Assembly: GCF_000003605.2 (NCBI RefSeq)
Contig: NW_003137330.1
Location: 141,747 to 193,500 of the forward strand
DNA: 51,754 bases
DNA from: Saccoglossus kowalevskii
Taxonomy: Eukaryota; Hemichordata; Enteropneusta; Harrimaniidae
Direction: 5' to 3'
The first letter of the stretch is position 1; every line of letters begins with the position of its first letter. Both the position numbers and the translations under genes were made by a program. Under the pieces are notes generated by a model. It had not been told where the DNA came from. It saw only the letters and a list, made by a program, of their open reading frames with translations, and ran no database searches. Shown here one piece after another: positions 2,936-51,754 of the stretch.

Positions 2936-3127
2936 TTGTCATAGTGTATGGATCGGAGCAGGATGCTGCTGGCCTCATGGGAGCAGCCAAGAAAATGAAA
3001 GGTCCTGGACACTTTGTATGGGTGGGAAGTGATGGATGGAGTAATAGACAACTGCCCGCAGAACAAGGCAAAGAGAGTATACTAGAGGGCGCTATTACGG
3101 TTCAACCATTAGCAGAACCAATTCAAG
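2936..3127 (+). CDS. mGluR exon: ligand-binding lobe, first exon in window
   Basis: Acceptor TTCAAG at 2930-2935, donor GT at 3128-3129. The exon starts at codon position 2 and ends phase 1, 192 nt. It encodes VVIVYGSEQDAAGLM and GHFVWVGSDGWSNR through EPIQG. The Asp (3031-3033) and Arg (3046-3048) of SDGWSNR align with mGluR1 D318 and R323. Confidence 0.92.
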
Positions 3128-15246: not shown

Positions 15247-15412
15247 TTAAAGTGAGGGAGTCGTCACCTGCGCATGCGTCAGATGGCCATAGCGTGTCAT
15301 TGTTTACAAACAAGCGTCTACCCATGAGCCTTTGCATTTTTTTTCGTGTGTTGTTATCGTCGCTTGGGGCTTAATTCCCGCGCGTGCGCAGGTGACGACC
15401 CTCCAGTTTTAA
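15247..15412 (-). mobile_element. TTAA MITE family 1, copy 2
   Basis: 166 bp bounded by TTAA at both ends with inverted terminal repeats (AGTGAGGGAGTCGTCACCTG and CAGGTGACGACCCTCCAGTT). The internal block is the reverse complement of copy 1. It lies in the mGluR-ILKAP intergenic region. Confidence 0.85.
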
Positions 15413-26300: not shown

Positions 26301-29300
26301 ATGCTAGGAATGTATTGTCATTTGACGTATACCACAGAGCAGATCTGTAGATTCAGTTGATTGATTTTTCAGCATCTTAGGGTGTCATCCAAATATTAAA
26401 TGACACACAGGTTTTTCAGCTTGACAATCGAAAATAGAGCAGCATCACAAAATCATGATTTGATGTATTTGACTTTTTATTAGGACTAGTCTGAGATGCA
26501 CACCAGATTCTTCAGGAGTTTCCTGTATATAGCAATTTTGTTCCTTTTCAATTTATGTTTTACCCATAATGCCACTGTGTTCGTATGAACCTATGTACTC
26601 ACTAAGTTAGTTGCATCAAGCACCTGAAACACAATAAACAGCAATACATGATGGGATGTATTGTAGTGAACCAAAAAATAACTTATTGTAATTGATAAAT
26701 GGTGTCAGGTTTCAACAAATGCCGTAACTTTCAGATTCAATTTTTGGACAAAGTAATTTTTTAAGGAAAAGTTCTAATCTGCATATATAAAGTAAAAGTG
26801 ATGTCCAGATTATTTAATAATTTTAATCATTGCTGTATTTTCTGCATCAGAGATGGTAGGGTGATGGGAGTTCTTGAAGTTTCCAGGTCAATAGGTGATG
26901 GTAGATTTAAACATTGCGGTGTTTCATGCATTCCTGAAATTAAACGATGTCAGTTAACAGAAAATGACAGGTAAGACCTACTTATCATTCATCAATTACA
27001 TGTATCATATTCTACCAACATTGTAAGTCCGTGTTTGAAAATACATTGTACTAGTAGTCAGAAAATTGGGACTTGAAATTGTTATATTTTGTAAGCAGTT
27101 CAAAATTGTTAATTATTCATTTGCATACTTTTCATTTGCATATGCTTTGTTCATTTGTTTCATTTCTCCACTGCGCATGGTTATTGTAGCTTAATGCTAA
27201 GAAACGACATTAGAGACCAAGTCTTGGCTGAGAGCAGAAGGGGTGTGAGCCACGGCCAAGCGTCGTCACCGAAACCAGCTCCGTGATATGAGTCGCAGAT
27301 TTGATTCACATCACGGAGAGATTAGCATGGTACTCGATGGAGGCCAGTCAACGCAGGGGTTACCACCTGACCGCCGTTGCGGATACCATTTCCGTGCACA
27401 GAGTTGCATGTTTGACTCTATTCACGAAGAATGGCAGTGTGTTAATCAAGTGGTTGCCCGCATTCACTGCGATGACAACCCCCCCCCCTTAACTTTATTG
27501 AAACAATGTTGAAATGTAATACAGGTTGATGCAAAAGTTGAATGCTTAAATTATGAGGTGGCGTGTGGGTGGGATAGCTTATAGACGGGTTCAGGTCACT
27601 TTCTGAATGTGGAATGACTATGCTAAGGCAAAGCAGGATACAGGAAAGCTTAATGATTGCATGGCAAATGAGATTAGGCGAATGACCGTCACGAGAGTAC
27701 GTGCTTAGAATATGCATGTGAATTGAAATAGCATGGGCGAGGCGTGCGCAAGATGAAAGGTCACGTACCTATGAATGGGGGTACACGTTGATGTCATGTG
27801 AGGGGCATTACGGCTGGCGTGTGTTGCTTAAGTCATGTGTAGGAGATTAAGATAGAAGCATCGTTGCCCGGCATTAACACAGACTATGCTGTCGCATAAT
27901 CATACTATTAATGCTAAGAAACGACGCTAGAGACCAAGTCTTGGCTGAGAGCAGAAGGGGTGTGAGCCACGGCCAAGCGTCATCACGCGTCGTCGCCGAA
28001 ACCTGCTCTGTGATGTGAGTCGCAGATTTGATTCACATCACGGAGAGATTAGCATGGTACTTGATCGAGGCCAGTCAACCCAGGGGTCACCACCCAACCG
28101 TCGCTGCAGATACCATTTCCGTGCACAGAGTCGCAAGTTTGACTCTATTCATGAAGAATGGCAACGTGTTAATTGAGTGGTGCCCGCATGCACTGCGATG
28201 ACAACCCCCAAATTATGAGATAGCCGGGAATGACGCAGCGACAAGCAAGCCGAGGAATCGGTATAAATACATGTTGTGGCATTAAAGTACATAACGGTGA
28301 TGTTGCTCGTGATATATAAAATGCAAGAGGTGGTCGACATGACTGAAAGTTAAATAGTTGATACGAACATGTCAAGGCAAATGTCTAAAGCGAAATATAG
28401 TTCATGTAAATGAATGTAACGAGGTAATAACGAGCGGGTACAAAGTTGGATGGTCGAAGGTAGCACCAAGTACCTGGATGTGGCAAACAAGATGCCAGTG
28501 TGAGAGTCGCGTGAAGTTGAGAATCCACAGGTAGTAGGAGGCGCCTAAGATGAATGACCGCTGAGGATTCAAGGCTTGTAGCTTTGAAGAAGGTGTGTCG
28601 ATATACACTATGCGTTGCTTCGCCATCTTCCTAGAGTCTTGATTAACCAATCTGGCACGTTCGCTTCTGCTGCGGTTGTTGCTGCCCCTCGTCTGAAGCT
28701 GTGGGTTGTGTACAGGCATGGATTTTGGATCCCAGCTCTAGTCAGCAGGTCACGCAAGTGGGTGGTGAGGCTTTGACGTGTAAGCCAACTCCCTGAGTGG
28801 AACTGGATGGCTAGCGTTTGGAGTGATGGGGCACAGATGCTGCGATACTTGGTGTACGCACGAACAGCACAGACTGAGGTGAATGTAGGCGCAATTTTGA
28901 TGATGCAGCCATGACGAAATGGATCTGTTTTGGAGGCACGCAACTGGAGGTGTAGCTCGATTGCAGTAAAGTACGGGTTTTGTCGAAATGCTGGGGCGAG
29001 AGTAAATTCACTGACTCTAGGAATCCAAAGAACGTGACCGTAAATGCTGACCATAGCATGAGTTGTCATTTGTGTGGATGGACGGGTGCGTTCGGAGTGA
29101 TTCTTTCAGGCGTCTTAGAATGTTCATAGTGATAGGGAGTCGTGGTTTCTTGGTGTCCCCTAATGACCTTTTGATGCCAAGTAGTGTACGTTGTAACTGT
29201 ACGTTGTCCGAAATGTTGTCTGGTTGACCTGAGTCGGTGTTTAGATGGATAATGGCCGCCAGGTAGACCTTAATGGTTTTGTACATTATGCCAGTCTGAG

Positions 29301-30043
29301 CTAGGTAGGTGGCAAATAGTATGGTTGTTTGTGGTGTGACTGGGTATCTGTTAAACTAATGATATACATTTCAGGTATATTGTCATAGCTTGTGATGGGC
29401 TGTGGAGGTCATTCAACTCTGAAGAGGCATTGCAATACATAGATACAATATTACAGGTAATTAATTTATCTTTATTTGCATATCAATGCATAACAACCCC
29501 AAGACAGTTGAAAGGTGTTATATGTAAACAAGAAAAGAATCTCATCCAGAACAAGTACACTATAGCTCTATAAATTTGTTTTTGAAAAGTTGTTGTACAA
29601 ACCATTGTCGAAGATAACAAAATTGTATTTTATTTTCCAAGAAGGTAGGCTGAATATTGCACTAAAATGTTGGTGAGAAAAAATGTATTAGAAATTTTTA
29701 TGTGAAAAACATAAACATCTTAAAGCGGGGGACATGCGTCAGATGGCCATAGTGTGTCATTTTTTATAAACAAGCATCTACCCATGAGCTTTTGCGTTTC
29801 TAGCATGTGTTGTTATCGTCGATTGGGACTCAATTCCCCGCGCGTGCGCACGTGACAACCCCTCTGCTATAATTAAGTAGAAGTCATGTTGTATTGTGTT
29901 TGTAGGGTGAGTCACATGAGAGAACTGAACTGAAGACAGTAGAAGACTCCAAGTATGAGATGGCATGCAACAAGATTGCTAATGAAGCTGTCAGAAGAGG
30001 AAGTGCTGATAATATCACTGTTGTCATAATTAGAATTGGTTAA
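17132..30043 (+). CDS. ILKAP: ILKAP-like PP2C family Ser/Thr phosphatase, complete gene, nine exons
   Basis: Exons 17132-17162, 19842-20045, 21016-21130, 22373-22573, 24302-24389, 25157-25278, 26851-26970, 29375-29456 and 29906-30043 join to 1101 nt, 366 codons plus TAA, with every phase matching and GT-AG throughout. The protein starts MDLFADIPEA, has SLFDDLP (34-40) as in vertebrate ILKAP, a basic PPKRRK (60-65) possibly nuclear-targeting, then the PP2C fold: ERNEMQDKH, YDGHAG (126-131), NLGDSK (208-213), EVSRSIGDG, ACDGLW (299-304), GSADNIT (353-359). Metal ligands in DGH, DG and DN are all present, so the enzyme should be active. Known family role: Mg/Mn-dependent phosphatase that binds integrin-linked kinase and restrains its signalling. 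Human ILKAP is slightly longer (392 residues). Introns hold many repeats; the coding sequence is clean. Confidence 0.96.
17163..19841 (+). other. ILKAP intron 1
   Basis: 2.7 kb of AT-rich DNA with several T and A runs. I see no exon or recognised element in it. Confidence 0.8.
19842..20045 (+). CDS. ILKAP: ILKAP exon 2
   Basis: Acceptor CCAATAG, donor GTAAAA, phase 1 to phase 1, 204 nt. It encodes the linker with SLFDDLPAETT and the basic PPKRRKLEEE stretch; the phosphatase fold has not yet begun. Confidence 0.92.
20046..21015 (+). other. ILKAP intron 2
   Basis: GTAAAA donor to CTTCAACAG acceptor. A slightly more GC-rich block at about 20280-20480 has short open frames on both strands but matches nothing I know and does not fit ILKAP. 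Confidence 0.75.
21016..21130 (+). CDS. ILKAP: ILKAP exon 3
   Basis: Acceptor CTTCAACAG, donor GTATGT at 21131, 115 nt, ends phase 2. It encodes AFVAERKGERNEMQDKHTLI, the first PP2C motif with the phosphate-binding Arg and metal-site acidic residues. The nearby GT at 21129 would break the phase. Confidence 0.93.
21131..22372 (+). other. ILKAP intron 3
   Basis: Contains MITE family 2 copy A (21927-22034). The rest is AT-rich without recognised features. Confidence 0.75.
21927..22034 (-). mobile_element. TTAA MITE family 2, copy A
   Basis: 108 bp bounded by TTAA. Ends are AAGCGTGGTGGTCATG and the inverse-related GACTGTCGCCCTTTAA. The internal TGTATTTTACACGCGTTGTA and CCCATATCGAACAGG blocks match 42011-42138 in reverse orientation. 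Confidence 0.8.
22373..22573 (+). CDS. ILKAP: ILKAP exon 4
   Basis: Acceptor TCCCGCAG, donor GTAAGT at 22574, 201 nt, phase 2 to phase 2. It encodes MAFYGVYDGHAGARAS with the metal-binding DGH and the following helices to KEAST. Confidence 0.95.
22766..23035 (+). mobile_element. TTAA MITE family 3, full copy
   Basis: 270 bp from TTAAATGGCGATGACATGCG to CGACAACTACCGCGCTTTAA, both ends TTAA. It is matched in reverse complement by about 43580-43865 and in part by the next tandem segment. The end sequences resemble families 1 and 2. It lies in ILKAP intron 4. Confidence 0.75.
23045..23230 (+). repeat. Partial second copy of MITE family 3 in tandem
   Basis: It repeats the right two thirds of 22766-23035 (TTGGAAGGTATCGA, TGCATTGTGGGAAAATCAAT, GACTACCGCC) about 165 bp further on. 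It has lost a clean TTAA end. Confidence 0.7.
23596..24272 (+). repeat. 44-bp minisatellite, about 15 copies, in ILKAP intron 4
   Basis: The unit reads CAATGTGTTTATAGTGTCAA then AGGTTTTTATGTTTACTACT then ATGT (44 bases). Copies are nearly identical. A variant with CGATGAGTTT appears at 23750 and 23926, exactly four units apart, hinting at block duplication. The array stops about 30 bp before the exon 5 acceptor. Confidence 0.95.
24302..24389 (+). CDS. ILKAP: ILKAP exon 5
   Basis: Acceptor TTATTTCAG directly after the 44-bp minisatellite; donor GTTTAC (weak) at 24390; 88 nt, ends phase 0. It encodes KPVWKDGSTALSI and ILYIANLGDSK, core PP2C strands. Confidence 0.93.
24814..25069. mobile_element. 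Foldback element in ILKAP intron 5
   Basis: 256 bp imperfect palindrome. ACAAGCACCAAATTTTG near 24864 pairs with TTTGGTGCTTGT near 25019; ACAAAAAAGCACATTAGCC near 24908 pairs with GGCTAATGTGCTTTTTTGT near 24968; the outer ends TAGCG...TAGTAG and CTATC...CGCTA also pair. Probably a non-autonomous foldback/MITE; no coding. Confidence 0.8.
25157..25278 (+). CDS. ILKAP: ILKAP exon 6
   Basis: Acceptor TGTTGCAG, donor GTAAAT, 122 nt, starts phase 0, ends phase 2. It encodes AVLCRYNKESDKN and LSKEHSPTLYEERQRIQKAGG, closely like vertebrate ILKAP. Confidence 0.95.
25279..26850 (+). other. ILKAP intron 6
   Basis: Contains repeat R4 copy 2 (25617-25991); otherwise no recognised element. Confidence 0.75.
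25617..25991 (+). repeat. Dispersed repeat R4, copy 2 (hairpin partly deleted)
   Basis: It matches 10952-11370 through GCAAAGTATGCACGAAGACA, TTTAGAACAGATTT, GGATGCAAATACCCAGTGCA and ACAGATGTATAATAATA. The right arm of the left-end hairpin is deleted after GTCTGAGT, so it could no longer fold. Confidence 0.75.
26851..26970 (+). CDS. ILKAP: ILKAP exon 7
   Basis: Acceptor CTGCATCAG, donor GTAAGA, 120 nt, phase 2 to phase 2. It encodes DGRVMGVLEVSRSIGDG, the typical PP2C segment, and CGVSCIPEIKRCQLTENDR. Confidence 0.95.
27191..27488 (-). repeat. Direct repeat B2 of the recombinase element
   Basis: About 298 bp, roughly 90 percent like 27908-28209 by eye: shares TTAATGCTAAGAAACGAC, GAGACCAAGTCTTGGCTGAG, GATTTGATTCACATCACGGA and CACTGCGATGACAACCCCC. 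It ends in a run of C. Confidence 0.9.
27908..28209 (-). repeat. Direct repeat B1 of the recombinase element
   Basis: Partner of 27191-27488 in the same orientation. It has a short local duplication (CGTCATCACGCGTCGTCGCC) absent from the other copy, showing the two copies have diverged. Confidence 0.9.
28608..29286 (-). pseudogene. Broken tyrosine recombinase (DIRS/Ngaro/Crypton type)
   Basis: Three frames in sequence make one family: an N-terminal helical part (TIKVYLAAIIHLNTDSGQPD, LLGIKRSLG, PRLPIT) at 29286-29060, a short WSAFTVTFFGFL piece in a second frame near 29050-29010, and the catalytic part in a third frame with RVSEF, SKTDPFRHG and THSFRRGAATTAAEANVPDW. HSFR is the family's HxxR box. 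At 28608-28610 the codon where the nucleophile tyrosine is expected is TAG, and a further frame change follows. Two or more frameshifts and this stop make it inactive. In living elements this enzyme integrates circular cDNA. Confidence 0.85.
29375..29456 (+). CDS. ILKAP: ILKAP exon 8
   Basis: Acceptor ACATTTCAG, donor GTAATT, 82 nt, ends phase 0. It encodes YIVIACDGLWRSF with the metal-binding Asp of DG, then EEALQYIDTILQ. It begins only about 90 bp after the recombinase remnant. Confidence 0.95.
29720..29876 (-). mobile_element. TTAA MITE family 1, copy 4
   Basis: 157 bp in ILKAP intron 8, same orientation as copy 2: TTAAAGCGGGGGACATGCGT on the left, TGCGCACGTGACAACCCCTC then ATTAA on the right. 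The left terminal repeat is shortened. It ends 29 bp before exon 9, so it may contribute to the acceptor's upstream region. Confidence 0.8.
29906..30043 (+). CDS. ILKAP: ILKAP exon 9 (stop codon)
   Basis: Acceptor GTTTGTAG, 138 nt including TAA at 30041-30043. It encodes YEMACNKIANEAVRRGSADN and ITVVIIRIG; the Asp of SADN is the last metal ligand. A MITE ends 29 bp upstream of the exon. Confidence 0.95.
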   Translation, partial: GESHERTELKTVEDSKYEMACNKIANEAVRRGSADNITVVIIRIG

Positions 30044-30489: not shown

Positions 30490-31313
30490 TAGTTCATATA
30501 TAAATACAAAAAAGTGACAAACAAATATGTAAAAAGATGAAATTACAGACTATACAGATTTGAAAACTATGACTAAACTCAGTAGACTTCGTCCAATGCT
30601 TCACTAAAGCAGGCTTCCATCTTACATCACTATTGAGTATTGCACAGACAAGCGTATTGCTTGATGTTTGTAGTAAATCTTGAAAAGCAGAAATTAGCTT
30701 TCTATATAAATCGGTAAATGTATTTGTACGAACGAACAAAAGTTCCTGCCCTAAAGTCATGGGCGTACCCTAACAGTTTATGAAAAGCATTTATTATAAC
30801 TGACCCGAAGGGCATTAACAGTTGACTTTTTATACATACACAATAACTGGCAGTAATGCAGGCTAGAACAAAATGTTTTAATAACAAAAGTTTGACTTCA
30901 CGGCTACAGTATGAACAAAGAACAAATGTTTCTGACAATCTATGTTCACATTGTCTTTCAAGTCACAAGTTATGTTATGTTCCAGATAATTAAACTGGTC
31001 AACAAAGTCATCATTATTATTATATAAATACAATGGTGGGTAATTGTTCATGCAATTACGACCATAGAAATGCATAGACTTATTTGAGTTGTAGGTAATG
31101 TCATGCTCTTCAGCGTGTAACTCACAAATATGTAACATTTTGTGCAAACCTTTAATAGAGGGCACAATTACACACATATCATCTGCATAGCTCAAATTGT
31201 TTATAACTTACCACCAATAAGACAACCACATGGCATGCTATTGAGTGTTACACTAAGATTATCCATATAAATACTAGACAGTTCTGGGGACATTACTCCT
31301 CCCTGTCGAAATT
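30490..31313 (-). pseudogene. LINE reverse-transcriptase fragment (non-LTR retrotransposon)
   Basis: On the - strand from 31313: FRQGGVMSPELSSIYMD and SVTLNSMPCGCLIGGK, then a frame change, then LSYADDMCVIVPSIKGL (active-site YADD at about 31190-31170), FNYLEHNITCDLKDNVNID, and in further frames the thumb/C-terminal part (AFHKLLGY, FTDLYRKLISAFQDLLQTSS, ALVKHWTKS). This is the usual order in jockey/RTX-type invertebrate LINE ORF2. Several frameshifts and missing 5' parts show it is dead. It lies about 450 bp after the ILKAP stop, in opposite orientation. Confidence 0.85.
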
Positions 31314-38039: not shown

Positions 38040-38194
38040 CTAATGTAATTCTAGTCGCTTTCCAGTGAAATTGTCAAAAAAGAGGCATATTTCTGTAGAG
38101 AATGTCATCATTTTCGCGTAAAAATGATGGTCGACCATCGAATTTGCACGCTACAACACAGTATCAATAAAAGGTATAACGATAACCAATAGCT

Positions 38195-38359
38195 TTAAAG
38201 AGGGAGGGTCGTCACCTGCGCACGCCCTGGAATTGAATCTCAAGCGACGATAACAACACACGCCAAAAACGCAAAGGCTCATGGGTAGACGCTTGTTTGT
38301 AAACAATGACACGCTATGGCCATCTAACGCATGCGCATGTGACGACTCCCCCGCTTTAA
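38195..38359 (+). mobile_element. TTAA MITE family 1, copy 5
   Basis: 165 bp, TTAA at both ends; GGGAGGGTCGTCACCTGCGC on the left and GACTCCCCCGCTTTAA on the right. It lies 78 bp past the M4 exon donor of the iGluR gene, inside the next intron. Confidence 0.9.
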
Positions 38360-38436: not shown

Positions 38437-38609
38437 CTTTTTAGCCGGCTCTATCTTGACCGACGTGGTTTCTTTATATGACGCCCAGCACCACTCCACC
38501 AACATTATAATGAAACCGAACCCAAAACCGGCAAACATAAAATAAAACACACCCGCCATGTTGTTAATACTCATTTGGCTGCCGGCTTTCTCTGTGCTAG
38601 TTTTCTTAT
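38437..38609 (-). CDS. iGluR exon: M4 and start of tail
   Basis: Acceptor TTTTTCAG, donor GTATGT, 173 nt, ends phase 0. It encodes [20 protein letters not shown] and [15 protein letters not shown] to IEPAKK. The gene continues beyond the donor. Confidence 0.95.
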
Positions 38610-41600
38610 CTGAAAAAGGAAATATATACTTTTATCTACTTCCAAAATGTTACAGTTCACAATCATTGAATTGGGCGATAAAACAATAACTGATAAAATA
38701 ATCTACAGAGGCAACACGGAATTTGAACACTAAGATATAAACATTTATACGAATATCATGGTAAACATGAAGTGGTGTCAGGTGATTTTAAAACAAGTGA
38801 GATTATCCTGCTTCTCAAGTGCTCATTCTGATTCATAATCAAATGGTTAATATCATAATTCCTTGGTTTATATCAGACAAGTAACATTGATGACATCATT
38901 ATCTGTGAACATCATTACCATATTAAACTGTAATATCTGCTAAAAACAAACCATTGAATGATGTTAACCATGGTTAATATCATTTTTACTACAGAAGAGA
39001 ACGTTTCTTTAAAACATCGACATAAGCACTACGTGTCCTGGGCTGGTGTATAAGTTGTAAACCCCTAAGGCAGGAGGGAGTGAAATATTGCTGTGGAGAT
39101 GTGTGAAATTGAAATCATCTCTTTTCTCATAAAATCTAGTAAAACACCAAATTTCAAAGCACAGTCCTAAATATGAAGCAGAAATAGCAAATCTCCCATT
39201 CATCCAAGGTTTATTATATATTTGGAATCTAATCACTAAATTAATATAGAAATTACATCATCAAAATACTCTTACGAATGAAGAAAGAGATCAGTCAGCA
39301 AGTGCGCAGAGTTTGTTGCCAGCTCCTCCAAACTTGACAAACAAATTAGTTGGCAATTATAAATGTTAGCACACTAATAATGTCTTCGAAATGAGTTGCA
39401 TCATAATTACTTCCCTTGATAGTTGACAAAGTAGAGGTTAAAAAAATCAGCTCTTTAGTTAGGAGATTCAGATGACCCAGCAATCATTCAAGCTTTGTAT
39501 GCAGTCTGGGTACCAAGTCATTTGTTACCTCCTTGATAGAAATTTGTATACAAGTCTTGAATGACTTGTGAATCATTAGCATTATTTAATTAATATAAAT
39601 ACCGTTCATCTAAGTTATCAGTAGTATTATTTTGTTCTCGATAGTTTGGATTTAGTAGCGCAATAATCAGTAAAACTTTTCTCCAAATATATATATATAT
39701 ATATATATCTTATCATTTATCATCACGCGCAGAAACCGGCATAATACAGTAATGAAATACTGTCAACTATAAAAACGCACGTGAAGAAAAAGTATAATAT
39801 AGTTTCTAGATAACTCACCTTTGTCACAGATTCCCGTGAAATAATTATTCGAGAGTTGCTCTATGTATCCACTTTGCCGTAGCTTTAAAATTTCTAAACT
39901 AAAAATGTCTGTGAGCTGTGAGTGAAGCGGCAAACCAAGTCCATAACCCATTTTGCCAAATAGTCTGCCAACGGTCTGTACGTCACATGGCTCCTTATTC
40001 GCCGCGTACTCCAATATAGCCGAATCCCAAATGAATGCGTAATTGCCTTCTTTCACTTTTTTTATCCCCTCCGTCGTGTTGTCCACGTTTATCATGGAGT
40101 TTGAGATTTTTTTGTAAGGCTCTACGCCGGCTTGTTCAAAGTACGATTCCGGTTGACTGTTATGCACAGTCCCGTATGGGATGCTGCTTTGTTTTGCCAA
40201 GTCATCCACGGAACTAATTCCTGTAATGTATAAATGTATATGCCTTAGAACCTGTGTGATTCTAGTTTCACAGTGCACGGAAATATGTACTGTGCTACGA
40301 TATATACACATTTACTCTCATGAACGTAACGCACACTGGATGTATCTGTGATGATTTATTTTGTGAAAAACTGAATATGAGAATAGTGCCATGCGAGACG
40401 GTGCCGCTGTCAACTGGCTCCGCTTTATATTATTATGTCTAAAAATTACTGCCGATTAACCCCTTGTATTATAATAATTAGTTTAAATATATGTAGTCGC
40501 AGGTACAGGGTTGCGTGCTGGTATAAAACAAAACAATTTCATTTGTCATTAATAGGACTGACAACTTGAAATCACATCACAGTTATTAATCATATCAACA
40601 GACGTGTTTATGATTTATGATCTTACAGTCAGGTAATAGAAGATTTCAGTAAATGTCTACTAATATTGAAAATAAATAAATGGAACTTCAAAAGTATCCT
40701 ATTTACGTTCAAAAGTATACTGGTAATATCTTACAGTTAGGTAATATAAGATTTCAGTAAATGGCTACTTATATTAATAATAAATAAATGGAAGTTCAAA
40801 CGTATCCTATTTACATTCAAAGCTGTAATAAACTACAGTTGGTTGATAGCACTTTACATTGAATTTCTTAGAACATTCCTATTTTTTAACGAAGTTAAAA
40901 AGCATTATATTTTTGCTTTCTAAAACCTCGTAATATCGCAAGTTTAAGAATCTTAGAAAGGGTATTGGGAACAGAGAAGAGTTTAAAATGTGATTTCTCA
41001 TCCGGGAGGAACATCAAGGATTTACTGAACCTGATCGTACAGGTATATTCCTGGTGTCGTTCAGGTTGACTGACATGTTCATATTTTATGGGGCTAAGTT
41101 TATGACCAGAAATAAAAATAATCTTGGGCTAAAGCTCAAAAAAATTACAGTTGTACCAAATATGTCAAAACTCAAGATTGTTCTAGCTAGCTCATCGATA
41201 TACTTCAAATAAAATAATCAGATATGTTTTTCATGCATAGTTTATCTGTAGAAATTGGGGAAACATTTATCATTCACCATTTTTCATGAAATTACACACT
41301 CATTAGTATTCTAATTTGCATATTCAGATAATTACCACTGGTAATATGGATGCAGACTGCATCAATGTATGTGCCTATCATATTTCATCCAAATATATTG
41401 AATTGAGATAATCCATATTCAGTAATGTGTAAATGAGGCAATTTACATATGCAAATTATCCCTAATAGCAGGGGCATATACTAGTAAATGATATCAATGT
41501 ATATCCCCACTAAATTTAGTTCAAATCTGTTGAGCTGTTGATGAGTGAATCCAAACTTAGTGAAAAAATGCAAATTGTCTAATTTACATATGTAAATTAA

Positions 41601-44600
41601 CGAATAGTAATATTTAGGTGTAAAACGACTGCATTTCAAGTGTGGTGAGCAGCAGTAACATGAATTACATATGCTAGCAGACAGTACGTATGCAGTACCA
41701 CCTAACTTTCTGTTCATTGGAACATGGGCGCCTTTTGAACGTAAGGACCCTTTGAACTCCTAACAGTCGTCGCTCAGTGCATTACAGTGGTCACGCGGTG
41801 AACCTTCGAATTTCATGCAAACAAATAATGTATTTTACACACTTTGTTGTCGTCGCATGGGACCCATACCAGTGTCTTATCTGACGACGTGTCTATCCAG
41901 CCCATGTGGATTGAATTGAATTTAGATTTATCAAAATCGATCCATCGCGGCAAAAAAGTAGATTTCATAATTTCTATTAATTAATGAATATACCTGGTAC
42001 ATGTCATATTTTAAAGGGCGTTTGTCGTCACGCCGCGCCCTGTTCGATATGGGACTCGACGTATACAACGCGTGTAAAATACATTGTTTATTTACATGAA
42101 ATTCGAACACGCGCTGCGCGACGACCACCGCGCTCTAAACGTGTGCTTACCGGTACTCATTCTAGCAACAGTGAGAAAAGCAGCTAGGTTGGCTGTGTAG
42201 TTTGCTGTGATGATAATGACTGCCATCCACCAAAATCCACCAACTATTCTACCAGATATCGACCTTGGATTGAAATCAGCTCCCTGGTGAAACACCGATA
42301 AATGATTAGTATTCTGGCATGTCAGAATGTAAATATATTGTTATTCAAATAAGTATCGTGTCAGATTTCTAATCTATTGTTAATTCGGATATGTACATTT
42401 CATATAATTTTGAATACATTTTAGTCTAATAATAATATGCGTTGAAAATGAATGGTTATTCCAATAAGCACAATACAATATTTTGTTATTCTTATGTCGT
42501 TGCGAATATGCTGAATATCCGAATTCCTATGAAACACGGAACCGTAATCGCGTAACTGGAAAATTAGTATTAAAATCATTATAAAAAAGTATGTGTTCCA
42601 GTATTAAAAACATATGTTTTTGCCCATATCACCTCTTAAAATTGCATTTCTATAAAGGACTGCAATTTAATTGAGTCGAATTAAATTACATTTAAAATGC
42701 CTTTCTAGAAAGGATTGTGATTTAATCTAAGTTTAATTAAATTGTATTTGGAATGCATTCTTATACAGGATTGCAATGCAATTGAGTTGAATTAAATTGT
42801 ATTTTAATGGCATTCCTGTATAGTTCCACCATCGATTCTGATTCTGGTTCCGGTTCTGCGTTTTATAGAAAACCCTATTTCCAGCGAAATAACCACGCAC
42901 TCACTTACTTGTTGCATCCAGGAAGCGAATGAAAACCACAGAGCGTTATAAAGATTCATAGAATTTCGTGCATCGTACGTAGAGGTATCACTTGAATCGG
43001 GACGCTGGACGTATGCACCATAATAGCCATAGGGACTGAGATAACTGCAGACTGAAACACACATGCCGGCAAACAACATGGCAAGCAGAATAGCCATCCA
43101 CAAATCATAGCTGAATGGGTCGAGAAATGCAAACAGGCTGCGTTCTGGCTCCTTGACTTTCATTAGAATGGTCAGTCCGAGGTCCAAGTATGGTTTGGTG
43201 AATGCGATGTACTGTTGCCTTTCGTAACTTATTGTGAACGGTGCCACTGCCACATCGGCTTTCTGTGAACGAAAAATAAAAGTTGTTTAAAGTCCCATAT
43301 GACCTATGCAACGCGTGTAATGCATTCTCCAAGTATCGACTGAACCACGCCATCAACGGCAGAAATTAGTCGAGGCTTGGAGGATGGCTTGTTAGACCAC
43401 GGAAAATACAACCATGACAGTTTACTGATAGTCGATAGAAAAGAATTTTATTTTTGTTACGTCGATTGGTACACCCAGGAGCACAATATCACGCGTGCAA
43501 GTTTACGTTACACCCCAATTTCGCATGCGCGCGCATGCGAAAAGGCGGTTCTTCGACTTCCGGGAAAGTCGTCTGTGCATACTGTTTTCAAGCGCGGCAG
43601 TCGTGCGCATGTGCGACATTTGTATTGACAAACTATTCCCACAGTCCAATGCGCTCTTTTAATGGAAATCACAAGTATGAGGTTTTGCCTGGGCGCGTCT
43701 TGCACTGAATACCGCCGGTGACTCCTTCGATACCTTCCAACCACCTAACAACTACCTAATTAAAGTTTCGTAACGCCTCAGTGTGTACTCGTTGATCTGT
43801 GCAACAGTCAAAGTCGCCATCTCTGTTTATGTGAGAACCATATATCTCGCGCACTAGTGGCGCGACGCGTTTGAGGCCAAATCACGCGCGGGTTTATGAT
43901 TGATTCAGTGTAAACAGTTACGTTTAGTAAATGACATAGAGATTTCGTCATCATTTTTTGAATCTGGATTATAACCACGAAAATGCATCTATACCATAGT
44001 TTTGTGATACACAAACACTGAGAGACACTTACTCCCTGGATGAGCTGACCAACCATGCCATTCCATCTAACCCTGTCTGAGTCCTCGTCTTTTGCGCCAT
44101 ACTGGCCATCGGGAACAAGGGTCATCTCGTATTTGAAATCTAAACTACTCTGCAATTTGTCCAATAAATCTTTGCAAAAGCCTTTATATCTATCGTTGCC
44201 CTTTTTTGTAGGATCGTCAGACATCATAACAAACGGCTCATCCTATAAGCAAAGAAATCAAACCAAGCTTGCATATTACTATGGAGTATACAGTGTGGTT
44301 TTCCAATGTCTGATCAGTGTAACCCCTTTGTATCACTATGGTAACGTTGTTGTTTATCAAAACTTTGAACGCCGAAGTAAACTTTTGCCATCTTTCGCGA
44401 AAAAAAAACAAAAAAAAACGAAACAAAAAAAAAACGCGTAAATATTTTAATATTTTTTCTCCAAGAAATATTGACCTGTCGCTTTAAATATCAAGTTCAT
44501 CTGGTCCAAAACTAAAATACTAGTACCTTATAGAAAAATTCATGATTAAAACGTGGGGAAAATCCCTCAACATTTAGGGGTGAAAACTCGTGGCGTTCAG

Positions 44601-47600
44601 TATTTTAATATGTAAAATATGAAAGAATTCTACGTTGCTAATCCTCGTTGTCTTAAAGCAGGGGGGGGTCGTCACCTGCGCACGCGCGAGTCTCATGCGA
44701 CGATAACAACACACGCTAAAAACGCAAAGGCTCATGGGTTGACGCTTGTTTATAAACAATGACACGCTATGGCCACCTGACGCATGCGCAGTCGACGACT
44801 CCCCCGCTTTAACACATGTTTGTTGTACAATGTTTCACCCTAAAACACGAGATTCCTCTGGAACAATCTAACAAATAACTAAATTGAAGTAAAAATTGTA
44901 AAATTGGAATAGTTCATAGAAAAGAATATAGAATAAAGTCAAATAATGTACCAAAAGCAAATACGTTTGTAGATAGAAATAGCATTCTGGGTAAAATTCT
45001 TTTGCATAGAGTCAAGAGGCAATGGAACACGTAGAAGCGTAAAATTACAAGATTTAAACCGCGTTCTGTGTCCTCAGTCAACGACCTATTCTACGTGAAA
45101 TACATATATAGATGACCAGCTACCTGAAGGAAAAGTCGACTTACCAATATGGTAGTGATTTTCAAAGTATAGTTACTGAGATCAAGATTACTATCAGTCG
45201 GAACTGTTCGGGTATTTCCAGGGAAGAACACACGTGTCGATATCTCCATGTCACCTTCGCCATACCATCCGCCCACCTGCAATTACGAAAATCGTTCCAC
45301 CACGTGATTACATATATTAAGTTACCGTAGATTACGTAATAAAATGAAGTGGCGGTAAACGCGGTGCGTCGTTTGATATACATTTTTTTGTGTTTACATG
45401 AAATTCGAACGACTACTATAAATACAGAGAATTATCACAGACTTACTTTTTCAAAACCACGGTTTCTCAAATTCACGATATCATAGTGAGCCACATCGGG
45501 CGCGTTGAAGTCTGTGAAATTGACATAATTCATTGTGCCATTGCATTGCACCTGTAATTAGAACATGCCGTATATATTACTCCTTCGTGCGATGTACATA
45601 CACCCAGGCTTCGGTCATTGCGTATTAGTTTCGCAAACTAGCAGGACCTAACTTGTACACTGCATAGTACTGTAACACTTGTGTATACTTATTTTAAACG
45701 TCCCTCTTGTTTGTTGTTGTGTCATCTATTAACCCTATTATTATTATTATTAACTCGCAACCAGCATGGTTTGACTTTAATCACTCAGGCTGTATAATGT
45801 CTCCAGTTGTGACGCTAACACTGATTGGCTATTCGCACTGCCAATCACGTGGCCGATTTTTCGTAATATTAACACGTACTATTTACTACTGAAAAATACT
45901 AAATCTATAATATCTACTCAAAACACGACAGAAGGACTTACTTTTCGTATATATTGCTTTAGTTTTTCTCCATCTCGCCATTTCTCGATGTCTCTCTTCG
46001 AACACGTTCTAGCTGGATAAGCGGGTATGCTAAGATTGTGTCCGTCTGTCAGGTAGTTATGCAGAGCATGTCCTATAGCAATTACTGAGTCGTACGTTCG
46101 CAATACGGACGCCATCTGTTTTAGAAAATATGGTGGCTTAGAAGAAAAAATATTCGAGAAACAGATTAAGTATGACAAACACTTTAATTCAGCTGAAATC
46201 TCGAGTCGGAGGTCATGACCTTGAAAGGAGACTTCCTTCTACAGTTACGACTAGTGCATTATATTATTTACATATCATTGGGCCCATATCTCTCCGGGAA
46301 ATAAATACCTAACAAAACAGTGGATATGAATAAACAGTGCATAAACGGTAATACCGATATTAAATTCAAACAAACAATTGTTACTATAAACAATGACAAG
46401 CGTTATTTACAGGTGCATTATGGGTACCTTTGAGTTTATGTTGTTGCAGCACACATAACAGTATACATTTAGTGAAATAACAATGCAACTGCGCATGCGC
46501 TTTTAATTAGTTATGCAATGCGCAAGTATAGTATATTTCAATCATATTGACATTGCCCTTTTTAAATTAATTTTATGTCCACCGCTTTGGATCATGCTGT
46601 AAAAACCCATGTTTACAATGCGATATATTTTGGGGCACAGACAAAACTGACGCCTCCTACGCGCCTTGACGTGACAGAAGACAACTTTAACATATAAGAA
46701 CATACATAAGTAATAAAACATTGCACGCACGGCAAACGATCGATGGCCACACATATCTGCGGAAGAGTTTGGGTGAGAGGAAGGATACGATGATGAACAC
46801 TGAGAATAGAGTTGCGCCCTCATAGTCCGCGTGGACACTTCTCGCTGCTATTAATGTGGCGCTGCTTGACCTGGTTGAAGTCATTGTCACTAGATGTGCT
46901 AAACATGTTGCATTCACCCCTGACCACATGCAACTTTATTTTCGCTGAATTTGAAAAATCAGTGAATATTATAGTGTAGTGCTATATTGTTATTAGCCAA
47001 ACCTTGCGGTGAAGTGTTCCAGTAACTGTGCTAGTCAGGAAACGTTTTCTAGGAATACGTGCCTGGGGGTAAACAGATTGGATACTGACTGAAACGTACA
47101 ACGATATAATTCATGAGTGAATACAGTTCGATTTAGTCTAAATTAGTTTGCCAATTTCATTCGTAGATAAGGAAAACCCAAACGACAGGGACTAGCGCGA
47201 AGGAAAGGGACAGGAAGGTGCAACTGGAGTAAATATATTACACACCGACATGGCAATATACAGCAACGTGTAATTTGCATACATTAAACGTGTTATACAT
47301 ACCAACCGGTTTAAACCTGTTTACATATATGTGTGTATGTCACTTACAGTAGGACGAACAGACAGACATACATTAGTAAGAGAGTCAGAGCAGAATGCTG
47401 CTGAATGAATGGCCAACTTTAACTCGCTTGGTGTGATGACGACAGAGGAAGTGACGTAATATCTCAAACAAGAAATTATGAGGAAGTAACGTAACGTAAA
47501 CAGAAATCACCAGAAAATCGTCGGGAAGGCTAAATACATGCGTGATGCATGCAATTGAACTTAACTGAAATAACTGAAAATACAAACAAGTGTTTCACCT

Positions 47601-49562
47601 CAGGGAATGTACTCCCGCCATCACCAAAAATGGAGTTATAATATGATTAAAATAGGATTATGACATGCATGAATTAGGTATGCAGATCAGAAAGAGAGAA
47701 AATGAATGAATGAGTGCGTACATTGAACTGATCAGTACAATGGTGATTGACCTCGAATCCTCGACTCCCACTGGAAGTTGGGTCCGTATTCCAGGCTTCA
47801 AGAAAGTTGGTGAACAGCATGCCCTCACCGACGGTAGGTCTCGTTCCTATCACTCCTATCAAATGTGGCGGTATTTCGAGACAGTCTTCATAAAGTCCTT
47901 CCTGCAGAACGAGGTCGACATAAAGTCATATTTATTTAAAAACTGACGACGGTGTTTGGTCGGTAATTTCGATTCTGGGCATATTATTTTTAAGTGTCGG
48001 GCGACGAAAGATCAAATCTATGTCGACGCTGAACAAATTTTCTTTGATAGAATTTCGTACGTATAAATATAATCGAACAGGTAGACACATGACTGATTGA
48101 TTTTTTTCATTGATTGATTAATTTATTGATCGATAAATCGTAACTAACGATGACTAATGTACGATCGTAATTACCAGCGCTGTGACTCCATCCGTAACCA
48201 CCCACGCCCAGCCTGACTGAGTCATTCCTAGTTCCCCAGCCTGTCTCAGCACATATCTGGCGTGTATCGCTAAGCAGTTCAGTATCACCAGTCGTACCCC
48301 TTTACTGCGAATTGTGAGCAGCTGTTCCCTCGCGTCTACGCTGGAAGCATTTTGGGTTGGCAGAAATCGACCAACGTGCGAGATCACCCAGTTCTTTAAT
48401 ATTGCTATCCGTTGAAATTCTTGAAGTCCATTTATTCCTGTGAAACAAATTTCATAGGGTCATAGAACACGGCCAAACTCTTTATTTCTCTGGACGTTTG
48501 CCGTATGTTGGCGACCAAGTAGTTTTGTTCAGTGCGTATGGCCGAAAATGATTCTGTTGACAACTAGTATATCATATGAAATGGTTTTCTGAGTTTAAAC
48601 TTAATAATAGATTCTAATCCAGCTGTGACGTAATACTGTATATTTGAATTCTGAGCGTTGGCGTAAGCACATTTAAAGAATTAATCGCATTAAATCTCAA
48701 AAATTCAAAAGATAGGTCGATATAAGAAATGGAACGAAATTATCGATTTCATGTGAGAATTATGATATTTGATATTCAGTTGTTTTCGGTTTGAGTGAGA
48801 ATTAAATATATAAAAAAATAATCAGACTGAGTCACAGTGTTATGAGATGCCAATTTTTAAAACGTATATAGTATCACTTAATTTGGTAATCGTTGTTCAA
48901 AGTAAATACTGTAAAACAAGTCTTTTTAGCTAGCATGTTATTTTAGCTAATTTAGCTAATCTGTAATGTCGCTAATTCAAGATGTCGCTAATTTAAAATA
49001 AAGTACATTTTCACATTAACTAAATTAAGATTCAGTTAATTCATGCATGGATTCAATTAAAAATGTCATGTAGCTATTTAAGCAATGACCCTATTTCGGG
49101 TATATCAGGTCGAAACTGTTAAATAGTGCTTGGAACAATGATTACTAAATATTTTCTACATGTATCTATCTTATGTATCTATCTTAAAAACTTGCATCTA
49201 TTTGCAAGCCTAACATAGTAGTGCAATTTGTATCCAGCAGTGCACGTGATCATGACTACGACACGTGATCAGAAAATGCTTAAGGAACTCACCATAGTCT
49301 GTCAACGAAGTCAGGATGGCCATTCTGGACCAACGGAAATGTGCAATAATATCGATCAGCGCGCGGCTCTGCCAACTGTCTGGAGCGCTCATCTTGAACA
49401 AATACCCATACGTATTAGGATTCTGGGATAAGGTGGGATCCGTTGCAAACGGCGCAAATTGTGGGATGTGCAGACCTTCGGCAATTGGGTATACAGCCTT
49501 AACGTCTGAAGACGTCGTGGGTCCAACTATCGCTACTACTCCACGGGATATTAAGTTACAAG
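38437..49562 (-). CDS. Ionotropic glutamate receptor subunit, partial gene (11 exons), epsilon-like with GluN1-type ligand signature
   Basis: Exons on the - strand: 49562-49293, 48437-48175, 47901-47752, 46115-45942, 45551-45447, 45276-45145, 44242-44033, 43262-42909, 42283-42151, 40220-39819, 38609-38437; phases agree and all introns are GT-AG. About 788 residues: amino-terminal domain, S1 ([26 protein letters not shown] with the alpha-carboxylate Arg at 43220-43218), M1, pore ([10 protein letters not shown], Gln at the Q/R site), M3 with [13 protein letters not shown]2 ([11 protein letters not shown], Asp at 40026-40024), and M4 ([13 protein letters not shown]). Role: cation channel gated by an amino acid at the cell surface. 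The Trp-Asp pair resembles glycine-binding GluN1, while the pore is non-NMDA; this combination suggests the epsilon class of invertebrate receptors. The N-terminal exons are off the right edge; the last exon is uncertain. Confidence 0.93.
38610..39818 (-). other. iGluR intron between S2 and M4 exons
   Basis: AT-rich, with a TA microsatellite at 39687-39709. No other recognised feature. Confidence 0.8.
39819..40220 (-). CDS. iGluR exon: S2
   Basis: Acceptor CATTACAG, donor GTGAGT, 402 nt, phase 1 to 1. It encodes [66 protein letters not shown] and [17 protein letters not shown] replaces the usual S/A-T carboxylate contacts (Gln 40155-40153, Pro 40152-40150). Confidence 0.96.
40622..40825. repeat. 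Tandem duplication, 108-bp period
   Basis: CTTACAGTCAGGTAAT at 40622 recurs as CTTACAGTTAGGTAAT at 40730, followed by the same AAGATTTCAGTAAATG, AATAAATAAATGGAA and TATCCTATTTAC blocks. It lies in the iGluR intron between M3 and S2. Confidence 0.85.
41290..41600. repeat. Diverged tandem repeat, about 130-bp period
   Basis: Blocks ATCAATGTAT...TTTxxTxCAAAT and TTTGCATAT/TTTACATATGCAAATT recur at about 41360 and 41490. Weakly conserved; in the same iGluR intron. Confidence 0.45.
41765..41895 (-). mobile_element. Diverged copy of MITE family 2
   Basis: Shares AATGTATTTTACACxCxTTGT and the GTCGTCGCATGGGACCCATA-like block with copies A and B, and has GTCGTCGC near its left end, but no clean TTAA borders. 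Confidence 0.5.
42011..42138 (+). mobile_element. TTAA MITE family 2, copy B, next to a splice donor
   Basis: 128 bp starting TTAAAGGGCGTTTGTCGTCA and ending GCGACGACCACCGCGCTCTA, the inverse of copy A. The right border has CTAA instead of TTAA. It ends 12 bp from the donor of the M3 exon (GT at 42150-42149). Confidence 0.8.
42151..42283 (-). CDS. iGluR exon: pore end and M3
   Basis: Acceptor TTTCACCAG, donor GTAAGC, 133 nt, ends phase 1. It encodes [44 protein letters not shown]. The gate motif is [12 protein letters not shown] instead of the usual [14 protein letters not shown] starts about 12 bp into the next intron. Confidence 0.95.
42641..42825. repeat. 55-bp tandem repeat, three and a half copies
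   Basis: GCATTTCTATAAAGGACTGC, GCCTTTCTAGAAAGGATTG and GCATTCTTATACAGGATTGC recur at 42644, 42699, 42754 and 42810, each followed by an AATTAAATT block. It lies in the iGluR intron just after the pore exon. Confidence 0.85.
42909..43262 (-). CDS. iGluR exon: S1 end, M1 and pore
   Basis: Acceptor TTCACAG, donor GTAAGT, 354 nt, phase 0. It encodes [20 protein letters not shown] with the ligand-binding Arg, M1 ([20 protein letters not shown]) and [13 protein letters not shown]. The last codon is the Q/R-site Gln (CAA, 42911-42909). Confidence 0.96.
43580..43865 (-). mobile_element. MITE family 3, reverse copy in iGluR intron
   Basis: Reverse complement shares GATGGCxACTTTGACTGTTG, CAGATCAACGAGTACA, AACTTTAATTAGGT, GCGCCCAGGxAAAACCTCAT and GTCGCACxTG blocks in order with 22766-23035. 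The terminal TTAAs are eroded. Confidence 0.8.
44033..44242 (-). CDS. iGluR exon: S1 first half
   Basis: Acceptor CTTATAG, donor GTAAGT, 210 nt, phase 0. It encodes [37 protein letters not shown] and [11 protein letters not shown]. The Tyr of DGQYG matches GluA2 Y450; the GluA2 E402 position appears to be Asp. Confidence 0.95.
44653..44812 (+). mobile_element. TTAA MITE family 1, copy 6
   Basis: 160 bp, TTAA both ends, AAGCAGGGGGGGGTCGTCAC on the left and CGACGACTCCCCCGCTTTAA on the right. In an iGluR intron, same orientation as copies 1, 5 and 7. Confidence 0.9.
45145..45276 (-). CDS. iGluR exon: linker into S1
   Basis: Acceptor AATTGCAG, donor GTAAGT, 132 nt, phase 0. It encodes [13 protein letters not shown] to YTLKITTIL; the TTIL strand starts the ligand-binding core. 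Confidence 0.92.
45345..45415. repeat. Partial MITE family 2-like segment
   Basis: TTTACATGAAATTCGAAC and a nearby GCGGTxAACGCGGTGCGTCG resemble one half of copy B. Short and partial. Confidence 0.45.
45447..45551 (-). CDS. iGluR exon: end of amino-terminal domain
   Basis: Acceptor TAATTACAG, donor GTAAGT, 105 nt, phase 0. It encodes [34 protein letters not shown]. Confidence 0.92.
45942..46115 (-). CDS. iGluR exon: amino-terminal domain
   Basis: Acceptor CTAAAACAG, donor GTAAGT, 174 nt, phase 0. It encodes [20 protein letters not shown] and KLKQYIRK, matching the YDAV.AIA.AL helix of iGluRs. Confidence 0.92.
46116..47751 (-). other. iGluR intron (amino-terminal domain)
   Basis: 1.6 kb without recognised coding or repeat content; open frames near 46550-46930 match nothing I know and do not fit the receptor. 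Confidence 0.7.
47752..47901 (-). CDS. iGluR exon: amino-terminal domain, 3' end ambiguous
   Basis: Acceptor TTCTGCAG, phase 0. It encodes [38 protein letters not shown]. Two in-frame donors are possible: GTCAAT at 47751 (150 nt) or GTACGC at 47721 (180 nt). I list the shorter; the longer has the better +5 base. Confidence 0.8.
48175..48437 (-). CDS. iGluR exon: amino-terminal domain
   Basis: Acceptor TTTCACAG, donor GTAATT, 263 nt, phase 1 to 0. It encodes [41 protein letters not shown]. Confidence 0.93.
48905..49085 (+). repeat. Dispersed repeat R5, copy 2
   Basis: Partner of 9805-10015: TACTGTAAAACA, GCTAGCATGTTATTTTAGC, GCTAATCTGTAAT and CATGTAGCTATTTAAG in the same order. In an iGluR intron. 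Confidence 0.65.
49293..49562 (-). CDS. iGluR exon: amino-terminal domain
   Basis: Acceptor CATTACAG, donor GTGAGT, 270 nt, ends phase 1. It encodes [32 protein letters not shown] and [16 protein letters not shown], typical of the LIVBP-like iGluR domain. Confidence 0.93.
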
Positions 49563-51754
49563 CTGTAATGAAAAGAATTAGCAAATTTTGAATTATATGC
49601 AATTATCTTGCGACATGGTAATAAATGATTAGTTATTACGCTAACACCAACAAATCGAATTGATTATATTAGGAAATGAACATGGCGTGTTAGCAGAATT
49701 GGAGACATAGGTGTTCTGTTATATTAAGCAATTTCGATTTCATTATGAAAATTTATAATGAGATATAGTGCATGCATATATCACGTTATGGTAGTAGGTT
49801 TATTCTTTGTTTTGTATTGTTTCCTACTATTATTGTTACACATTATTGTCAGTTCCTGTATGTCATATGTTGAATTGGAATAGCCAAAGGGACGGCTCTG
49901 CATATATACGGTATGTTTTCTATATTAGTGCATTTAGTTATACGACAGCGTTTAATATGTATCATAATATATTTGGTTAGCTCACGACGTCATAACTATG
50001 TCTACGTTCCCCTAGAATGTAAATCGTGTTTCAAAAGTTCACAATGACTGATGTAATTCAAGTGCGATTCCGGTGTCATTGTATCAGTGTGTGTGGCAAA
50101 GTTCTTTTATTCGAATAATTTCGCCACGCTGTTACCGTTGAAAATAAGTCTCTAGTAACCGAGTCACCCGAAACTCAGTGTCGACATTAATGATTTATTT
50201 ATTTTTTTAAATTGTGTATCACAAGTATGTCACATGTATGTATTAAATTTACCACACATCTCACTGTATATACATAAGTGACGTCACTGGGAATCATCAA
50301 GCAGACGGACGAACCGCATGTGGACTTTGGAATCCAAGAAGAGAACTATTGCCAATGGAAACATTTCATTTTCTTTAAATTGAAGTGTATTTATATTGGC
50401 CCGGTTAGTCAGTGCAAAAGAATTTGACACATGAATTGTTTATTGATTCAAATACAAGTTTGGTTATTAAGTTATTTATTCAGTTGTCATTGAATGTTGC
50501 TATCATTTTATCTAGGTAATCTTAGACGTATTCAATCACGGCCAAGTGTAGCACGGCCTGCTGCGACAATACTAACAGGCGATATTATTACAGCAAATTC
50601 ACCGAACTCTGAGTGCAAGCAAGCATAGCGCCGCCAACGGATACTAACACTTTCTTATGTAGTGTTTCCGGTACAAATTAATGTTTCATTTCCGAGATTA
50701 GTAGCGTTCAAACACAGCTTCTTAGCATATGTTAAGACACAGTCCCTCATTCAGTGCTCATTCTCTGTATAAAGATCGCAGTTGTATATGTACATACGCA
50801 CACGTTTTTTTAAAGCGGGAGGGTCGCCAACTGCGCACGTGCGGGAATTGAGTCCCAGGCGACGATAACAACACACGCTAAAAACGCAAAGGCTCATGGG
50901 CAGACGCTTGTTTGTAAACAATGACACGCTATGACCATCTGACGCATGCGCAGGTAACGACTCCCCCGTTTTAATTAATCAAGCGTATTTCAACATTTTT
51001 TGTTAAGTGTAACACAGTCACGTTTTCTCCCTAAAACAAGCACTAGAAACTTTTATTTTCACATTCAAAACTGAAAAATGCAAATTTCAGTGTTATATGA
51101 CTAACTTGTCACAAATTAGAATTTCCCCCTGTTGCCCAAATGTATATATTGTGTCTTAGTTTGGCTTATTAAAAAATAATTCATTTTTTACTCACAACCG
51201 TGACATATTTCGTTTTTTAACAGATCAACCAAGTGAGTATTTTCGTAAGTTGTAATCATTGTTTTTATTTTCGTGATATGTAATTTAAATAAATAAAAAA
51301 ACGTAAATTCGTAGACATGGCCAAGGTGTAAAATGTAATCAGCTATTTTATTCGTCCGTAATTTTTACAAAGATATTAATTATTGTACTAAGTGTATAAA
51401 GCATTTTCAAATTAAATGTCTTAATTTCCAATTTTTATTCTTAAACTCCAATCATCCAAAATATTATAAAAAAACTTAAAATGTAATTAGGAATTCGCTT
51501 TATCTGTAAAGTGTAAAAACCTATTTTTTACTGCAAATGGAACTTTCATTTTATTTCCTGTAAAATGCCGTAATTATTTCCTGTAGTCTGTACCAGCTTA
51601 CTTCCCGGTTTCCTTGTCCCCCCCCCCCCATTGCCAATATTTTTGACTAGTTCTGTTGGAGGCTTAGTCCACACAGAGTAAGATACTGAATGTATAGGAA
51701 ATTTCGTCTTGGACGGGGTCGCCAGAAGGAACTGGCCCGCACGGCAGTCGCAGC
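49563..51754 (-). other. iGluR upstream intron reaching the window edge
   Basis: Upstream of the first visible iGluR exon. It holds MITE copy 7 and a C run at about 51619-51630; I see no further exon of the amino-terminal domain. Confidence 0.65.
50810..50974 (+). mobile_element. TTAA MITE family 1, copy 7
   Basis: 165 bp from TTAAAGCGGGAGGGTCGCCA to CAGGTAACGACTCCCCCGTT then TTAA. The best-preserved full copy with clear inverted ends. Confidence 0.9.

Follow-up and report, generated by a model that had tools for sequence, protein, structure and literature searches.

A Trp-Asp and Gln-Pro ligand pocket in a likely epsilon-class ionotropic glutamate receptor of the acorn worm Saccoglossus kowalevskii

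Results

The window, as we call the whole analysed stretch of 51,754 nucleotides of S. kowalevskii DNA (contig NW_003137330.1, positions 141,747 to 193,500), carries an ionotropic glutamate receptor (iGluR) gene on its reverse strand. Eleven exons running from 49562 to 38437, all flanked by an AG acceptor and a GT donor, join in frame into 798 stop-free amino acids (Table 1), a part read of the gene without its first and last exons, which were not located; open reading frames upstream were inspected by eye. The segment 39819..40220 is exactly one S2 exon of this gene, with the acceptor ...attacag and the donor gtgagt. In Pfam the spliced protein matches ANF_receptor (5.8e-49), Lig_chan (2.5e-40) and Lig_chan-Glu_bd (1.3e-39), and iGluR identity is far above chance (Pfam Lig_chan 6e-41 and Lig_chan-Glu_bd 4.5e-37; GluA2 in PDB 1.7e-105). 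Such E-values rule out a chance open reading frame, and a pseudogene is not supported for the part read, with its 11 canonically bounded exons and no stops. A tblastn search found no further iGluR copies within the window, its matches falling on exons of this gene only. An AlphaFold2 model of the S2 exon alone had a mean pLDDT of 40.3 and was set aside.

Table 1. Exons of the iGluR gene and residues located in them (GluA2 numbers in S1, pore and S2; mGluR1 numbers in the amino-terminal domain, ATD)
Feature	Positions	Strand	Evidence
ATD exon with Ser165, Thr188, Asp208 and Tyr236 equivalents	49293..49562	-	splice sites, frame, alignment
Ser165 equivalent	49509-49507	-	alignment
Thr188 equivalent	49443-49441	-	alignment
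Asp208 equivalent	49380-49378	-	alignment
Tyr236 equivalent	49296-49294	-	alignment
ATD exon with Asp318 equivalent (48192-48190)	48175..48437	-	splice sites, frame, alignment
ATD exon	47722..47901	-	splice sites, frame; Pfam ANF_receptor over spliced protein
ATD exon with Lys409 equivalent (45965-45963)	45942..46115	-	splice sites, frame, alignment
ATD exon	45447..45551	-	splice sites, frame
ATD end and S1 start	45145..45276	-	splice sites, frame
S1 exon (D402, Y450)	44033..44242	-	splice sites, frame
S1, M1, M1-M2 loop and pore exon (P478, T480, R485 at 43220-43218, Q586 at 42914-42912)	42909..43262	-	splice sites, frame
M3 and gate exon (D590, NYTANLAAF)	42151..42283	-	splice sites, frame
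S2 exon (Ser-Gln-Pro 653-655 at 40158-40150, W704 at 40029-40027, D705 at 40026-40024, Y732 at 39945-39943)	39819..40220	-	splice sites, frame; PDB matches of the exon
M4 exon	38437..38609	-	splice sites, frame

On the opposite strand lies an mGluR-like gene (2908-8742, plus strand; 7tm_3 1.2e-74, NCD3G 2.6e-13 and pieces of ANF_receptor), whose exons were matched besides those of the iGluR gene when mGluR queries were used in tblastn. Elsewhere in the window an exon at 22305-22574 (plus strand) matches protein phosphatase 2C (6e-06), and a tandem array with a 44-base period occupies 23464-24423. A dispersed repeat of about 80-170 bases recurs at 4919-5000, 38194-38359, 44647-44812, 50809-50974, 15273-15339 and 29733-29799; it is made up of two families that overlap and a third, short one, and three of its copies fall within the introns of the iGluR gene or next to them. 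Open reading frames at 28611-29105 and 30881-31207 (minus strand), tyrosine-recombinase-like (0.00034) and reverse-transcriptase-like (0.00083) at scores under the Pfam cut-off, are likely transposon remains. Rfam and tRNA scans gave no matches.

The genome assembly (572,110,611 bases in 4830 contigs) was searched with PF00060, which gave 22 exon matches, two of them from this gene. Thirteen paralogs were assembled and 12 entered the tree, a partial one read through an intron (C4731) being left out; three places on C1210 also lie outside the tree, and the two of them that were partly retrieved score best with GluN2A. The paralogs are joined tblastn pieces in which a few intron-derived residues are possible, and several are without parts of S1 or S2. 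Pattern scans of the viral_contigs and genome_contigs sets gave 62 and 29 matches, none of them confirmed. The sister gene, C1 (C1:126500-136499), is 58% identical to the window gene over 385 columns and retains S653-Q654-P655-W704-D705, with His586 in place of the Gln586 of the window gene and with Glu590.

In GluA2 numbers the pocket of the window gene reads D402, Y450, P478, T480, R485, S653, Q654, P655, T686, W704, D705, I708 and Y732. Alignment thus bears out the residues to which a sequence-only reading of the S2 exon had drawn attention, namely Trp and Asp at what are GluA2 positions 704 and 705 and Gln-Pro at the carboxylate site within the Ser-Gln-Pro of 653-655, and it agrees that the pore (MQQ, followed by GAD across the exon junction, with Q586 and D590) and the gate (NYTANLAAF) are non-NMDA. 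At positions 653-654-655/704-705/732, GluD1 and GluD2 read SAV/WD/Y, GluN1 SSV/WD/F, GluN3A SSA/MD/Y, GluN2A GST/YD/Y, GluA2 GST/LE/Y and GluK2 GAT/ME/Y. The same reading had taken Trp-Asp as the glycine-site signature of GluN1, at a place where glutamate receptors have Glu; this does not hold in general, since GluN2A, a glutamate binder, carries Asp705, which leaves glutamate possible with Asp705. Nor is the pair specific to a class, as it occurs in nine of the 19 rows with letters at 704-705 (window, C1, C1357, C4525, C1572, C1515b, GluD1, GluD2 and GluN1), all nine having S653, and the exact 11-residue motif around it recurs in the NMDA3-type C1515b (C1515:177000-196999) of the same genome. 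GluN3A binds glycine without Trp704, having Met. Trp704 is absent from every row that combines G653 with T655 (GluA2, GluK2, GluN2A, C3767, C50 and C354). Gln654-Pro655 is found in three of 20 rows, the window gene, C1 and C1357, and Gln654 in no vertebrate reference row. The AKDF-side gene C1357 (C1357:46000-65999) has Ser-Gln-Pro together with Trp-Asp, for which descent and convergence are both possible, and C1515b has Ser-Ser-Pro at 653-655.

A tree of eight rows places the window gene, without resolved order, at the base of AMPA, kainate and delta receptors (beside GluA2 and GluK2, 62/56); AU tests give p 4e-6 for a clade with GluN1 and p 9e-5 for one with GluA2 alone, and p 0.32 and p 0.33 for positions with delta and outside GluA2, GluK2 and delta. 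Across four partitions, with and without the pocket columns, the GluN1 clade has p 0.0002 to 0.002 and the order at the AMPA/kainate/delta base stays as indistinct. The phylogeny that the sequence-only reading had suggested as a check was run on 20 rows, none of them a named epsilon sequence, and puts the window gene clear of NMDA1. The window gene and C1 pair at 100/100 and lie outside the 11 AKDF (non-NMDA) rows, as expected of epsilon, which should be sister to AKDF and outside NMDA, at a weak 79/77 that is not starred, and at 69/35 without the pocket columns. C4525 and C1572 group with GluD1/2 (96/95), the window gene staying outside, C3767 groups with GluK2 (100/99), and C50 and C354, both with Leu586, form a pair (98/99) of phi-like appearance. 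By AU test on these rows, a clade of the window gene with NMDA1 has p 8e-7, with AMPA and kainate (GluA2, GluK2 and C3767) p 0.037, with C1357 p 0.17, with the phi-like rows p 0.34 and with AKDF minus delta p 0.40. A GluN1-type subunit is ruled out by the AU tests on eight rows, 20 rows and four partitions and by Gln586, not Asn; the AMPA and kainate classes were likewise rejected on their clade tests. GluN1, the glycine subunit of NMDA receptors, shares S653, W704, D705 and the string AFIWDSA with the window gene, and differs in its Asn586 pore, its loop-1 insertion with cysteines and its F732.

The M1-M2 loop, 17-29 residues long in the remaining 18 rows, has 31 in the window gene and C1, and in the available part of PMC6307864 an insertion between M1 and M2 is what noticeably sets epsilon apart; the long loop appears in line with that insertion, to which we liken it by its description and not by its length. 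The same partial text gives non-ctenophore epsilon receptors as without the loop-1 cysteine pair, and the alignment of the window gene has no loop-1 insertion with cysteines. It also reports no phi member with Gln586, so the Gln586 of the window gene goes against phi, but C1 has His586, and p 0.34 does not reject a clade with the phi-like rows. Epsilon receptors are known, as far as the available literature text extends, from hemichordates, non-vertebrate chordates and an annelid, and were not found in the echinoderms examined there.

The spliced ATD (367 residues) finds its top PDB match in plant GLR3.4 (4.4e-18), followed by mGluR7, mGluR5 and mGluR6 (about 2e-14) and, from 2e-12, by kainate and AMPA ATDs; the best 60 of 330 matches include neither delta nor NMDA chains. 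It is nevertheless an ion-channel ATD, 23-27% identical to the Venus flytrap of class C GPCRs (mGluR), which gives it better PDB matches than AMPA/kainate ATDs do, and Ser186 is Phe in it. With mGluR1 residue numbers placed on mGluR5 by motifs that we take to mark them, alignment with mGluR5 and mGluR7 shows all five of Ser165, Thr188, Asp208, Tyr236 and Asp318, and Lys409 as well. In the available part of PMC2680970 amino acids are recognised mainly by the first five of these, and Lys409 is the glutamate residue. The ATD of the window gene shares 47 of the 127 columns common to mGluR5 and mGluR7, and agreement at six of six site residues has P 0.002. GLR3.4 is without equivalents of Ser165 and Tyr236. 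By eye, C1 keeps four of the five (Thr188, Asp208, Tyr236 and Asp318) but reads Gln at the Ser165 position and Val at that of Lys409; in their aligned stretches Asp208 is kept by neither the kainate gene C3767 nor the NMDA3-type C1515b, and C3767 also lacks Thr188.

Discussion

The part read of this gene contains an ATD, a ligand-binding domain and pore domains, the ligand arginine R485, T480, the acidic D705 and Q586/D590, in an open chain of exons. We consider that it likely belongs to epsilon, a placement kept at that strength because the tree has no named epsilon sequence. As far as aligned residues can tell, Trp-Asp at 704-705 is a mark of pocket type and not of a class or of one ligand; it cannot by itself place the gene, because the pair occurs in several classes.

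Our preferred explanation, to which we give about an even chance, is that the gene encodes an ATD-bearing invertebrate iGluR subunit, most likely epsilon, whose cation channel would open to glycine or to another small alpha-amino acid much like it. The alpha-carboxylate would be held by R485 and by the backbone at 480 and 654, and the amine by D705, after which closure of the pocket would open the M3 gate. Pro655 has neither the hydroxyl nor the amide hydrogen by which Thr655 holds the glutamate side chain in GluA2. W704, S653 and P655 would fill space, and with Thr655 gone the glutamate side chain would be without the donors it needs, so that glutamate would be disfavoured. Gln654 would be tolerable because GluK2 and GluD have Ala there, the serine side chain therefore being dispensable. 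By the rule for the glycine type in the available part of PMC12226733 (S653, a hydrophobic 655, with Pro named, and F732) the window gene has two of the three residues; Tyr732 is the glutamate-type residue of that rule but is common to GluD and GluN3A.

Among the closest known systems is GluE1 of amphioxus (Branchiostoma lanceolatum), in which, according to the portion of PMC6307864 available, glycine opens the channel, alanine or D-serine do so very little, and glutamate and aspartate do not. Ser653, Trp704, Gln586 and Asp590 of the window gene are the residues described there for GluE1, a comparison by described residues only, and the window gene may resemble epsilon also in its M1-M2 loop and tree position. 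Glycine-evoked current is known from amphioxus GluE1 and placozoan GluE1alphaA. The glycine-gated, epsilon-type channel of the sequence-only reading is favoured in part, by tree position, loop and GluE1-like residues; its argument from the motif is weaker than it was put, and delta receptors had been overlooked. Among candidate ligands we rank glycine, or an alpha-amino acid of similarly small size, ahead of GABA.

GABA enters because the gene could be a delta-like receptor, or an early branch of AKDF, with a Trp-Asp pocket that serves GABA (or D-serine) and not glycine, which we regard as unlikely. The S2 exon has GluD2 and GluD1 as its top PDB matches, with no GluN1 chain in the best 60 of 360, and its identity is 41% to GluD2 but 32% to each of GluA2, GluK2 and GluN1; GluD1 and GluD2 share S653, W704, D705 and Y732 with the window gene, and a clade of the window gene and C1 with all four delta rows, at p 0.41, is not rejected. 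GABA is by sensitivity the most effective ligand of starfish and acorn-worm delta receptors (PMC10861852), and the Thr480 of the window gene has its counterpart in a Thr of acorn-worm GluD. However, two separate delta-type genes of the genome, C4525 and C1572, group with GluD1/2 and leave the window gene outside, and the clade has p 0.078 with GluD1/2 alone and p 0.14 with C4525 and C1572 alone. Further, GluD1 and GluD2 have Ala654-Val655, the M1-M2 loop of delta rows has 17-24 residues (17-21 in GluD1/GluD2), and in S1 and the transmembrane segments identity to GluA2 and GluK2 is above that to GluD2.

A modulatory or orphan subunit that forms no amino-acid-gated homomer seems more doubtful still. 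Gln654 is unusual, ligand does not open vertebrate GluD receptors, and none of six amino acids evoked a response from amphioxus GluE7, which the part of PMC6307864 available attributes to Tyr653; but the window gene keeps R485 and the acidic 705, named in that paper as the two positions that fix the ligand backbone, and its 653 is Ser, not Tyr. A glutamate-gated receptor with an unusual pocket we hold to be very improbable: GluN2A shares Tyr732 and D705 with the window gene, but W704 and P655 are both off the glutamate pattern, and Trp704 does not accompany G653 and T655 in any row.

The most surprising part of the gene is its ATD, which lay outside the original finding. Its class C residues may reflect ancestral likeness only, or may form a working second site. 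A narrow literature search for an ATD amino-acid site gave an AMPA review whose available part has no such site. A rather improbable extension, judged from the residues, is a two-site channel in a single subunit, with a glycine-type ligand-binding domain and an ATD whose class C GPCR site would still bind an amino acid. Occupancy of the ATD by one amino acid, perhaps glutamate, would then modulate the gating of the channel by a different one.

That Trp-Asp is common to delta, NMDA1, NMDA3-type, AKDF-side and epsilon-position receptors corrects an easy misreading of such pockets. The genes with Gln-Pro at 654-655 are a natural test of the role of the 654 side chain and of any exclusion of glutamate by Pro655. 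With class C residues kept in the ATD, one can ask directly whether the ancestral iGluR ATD sensed amino acids; if the two-site channel were true, the ATD of early animal iGluRs would have been a second sensor, later lost in the AMPA, kainate, delta and NMDA lines.
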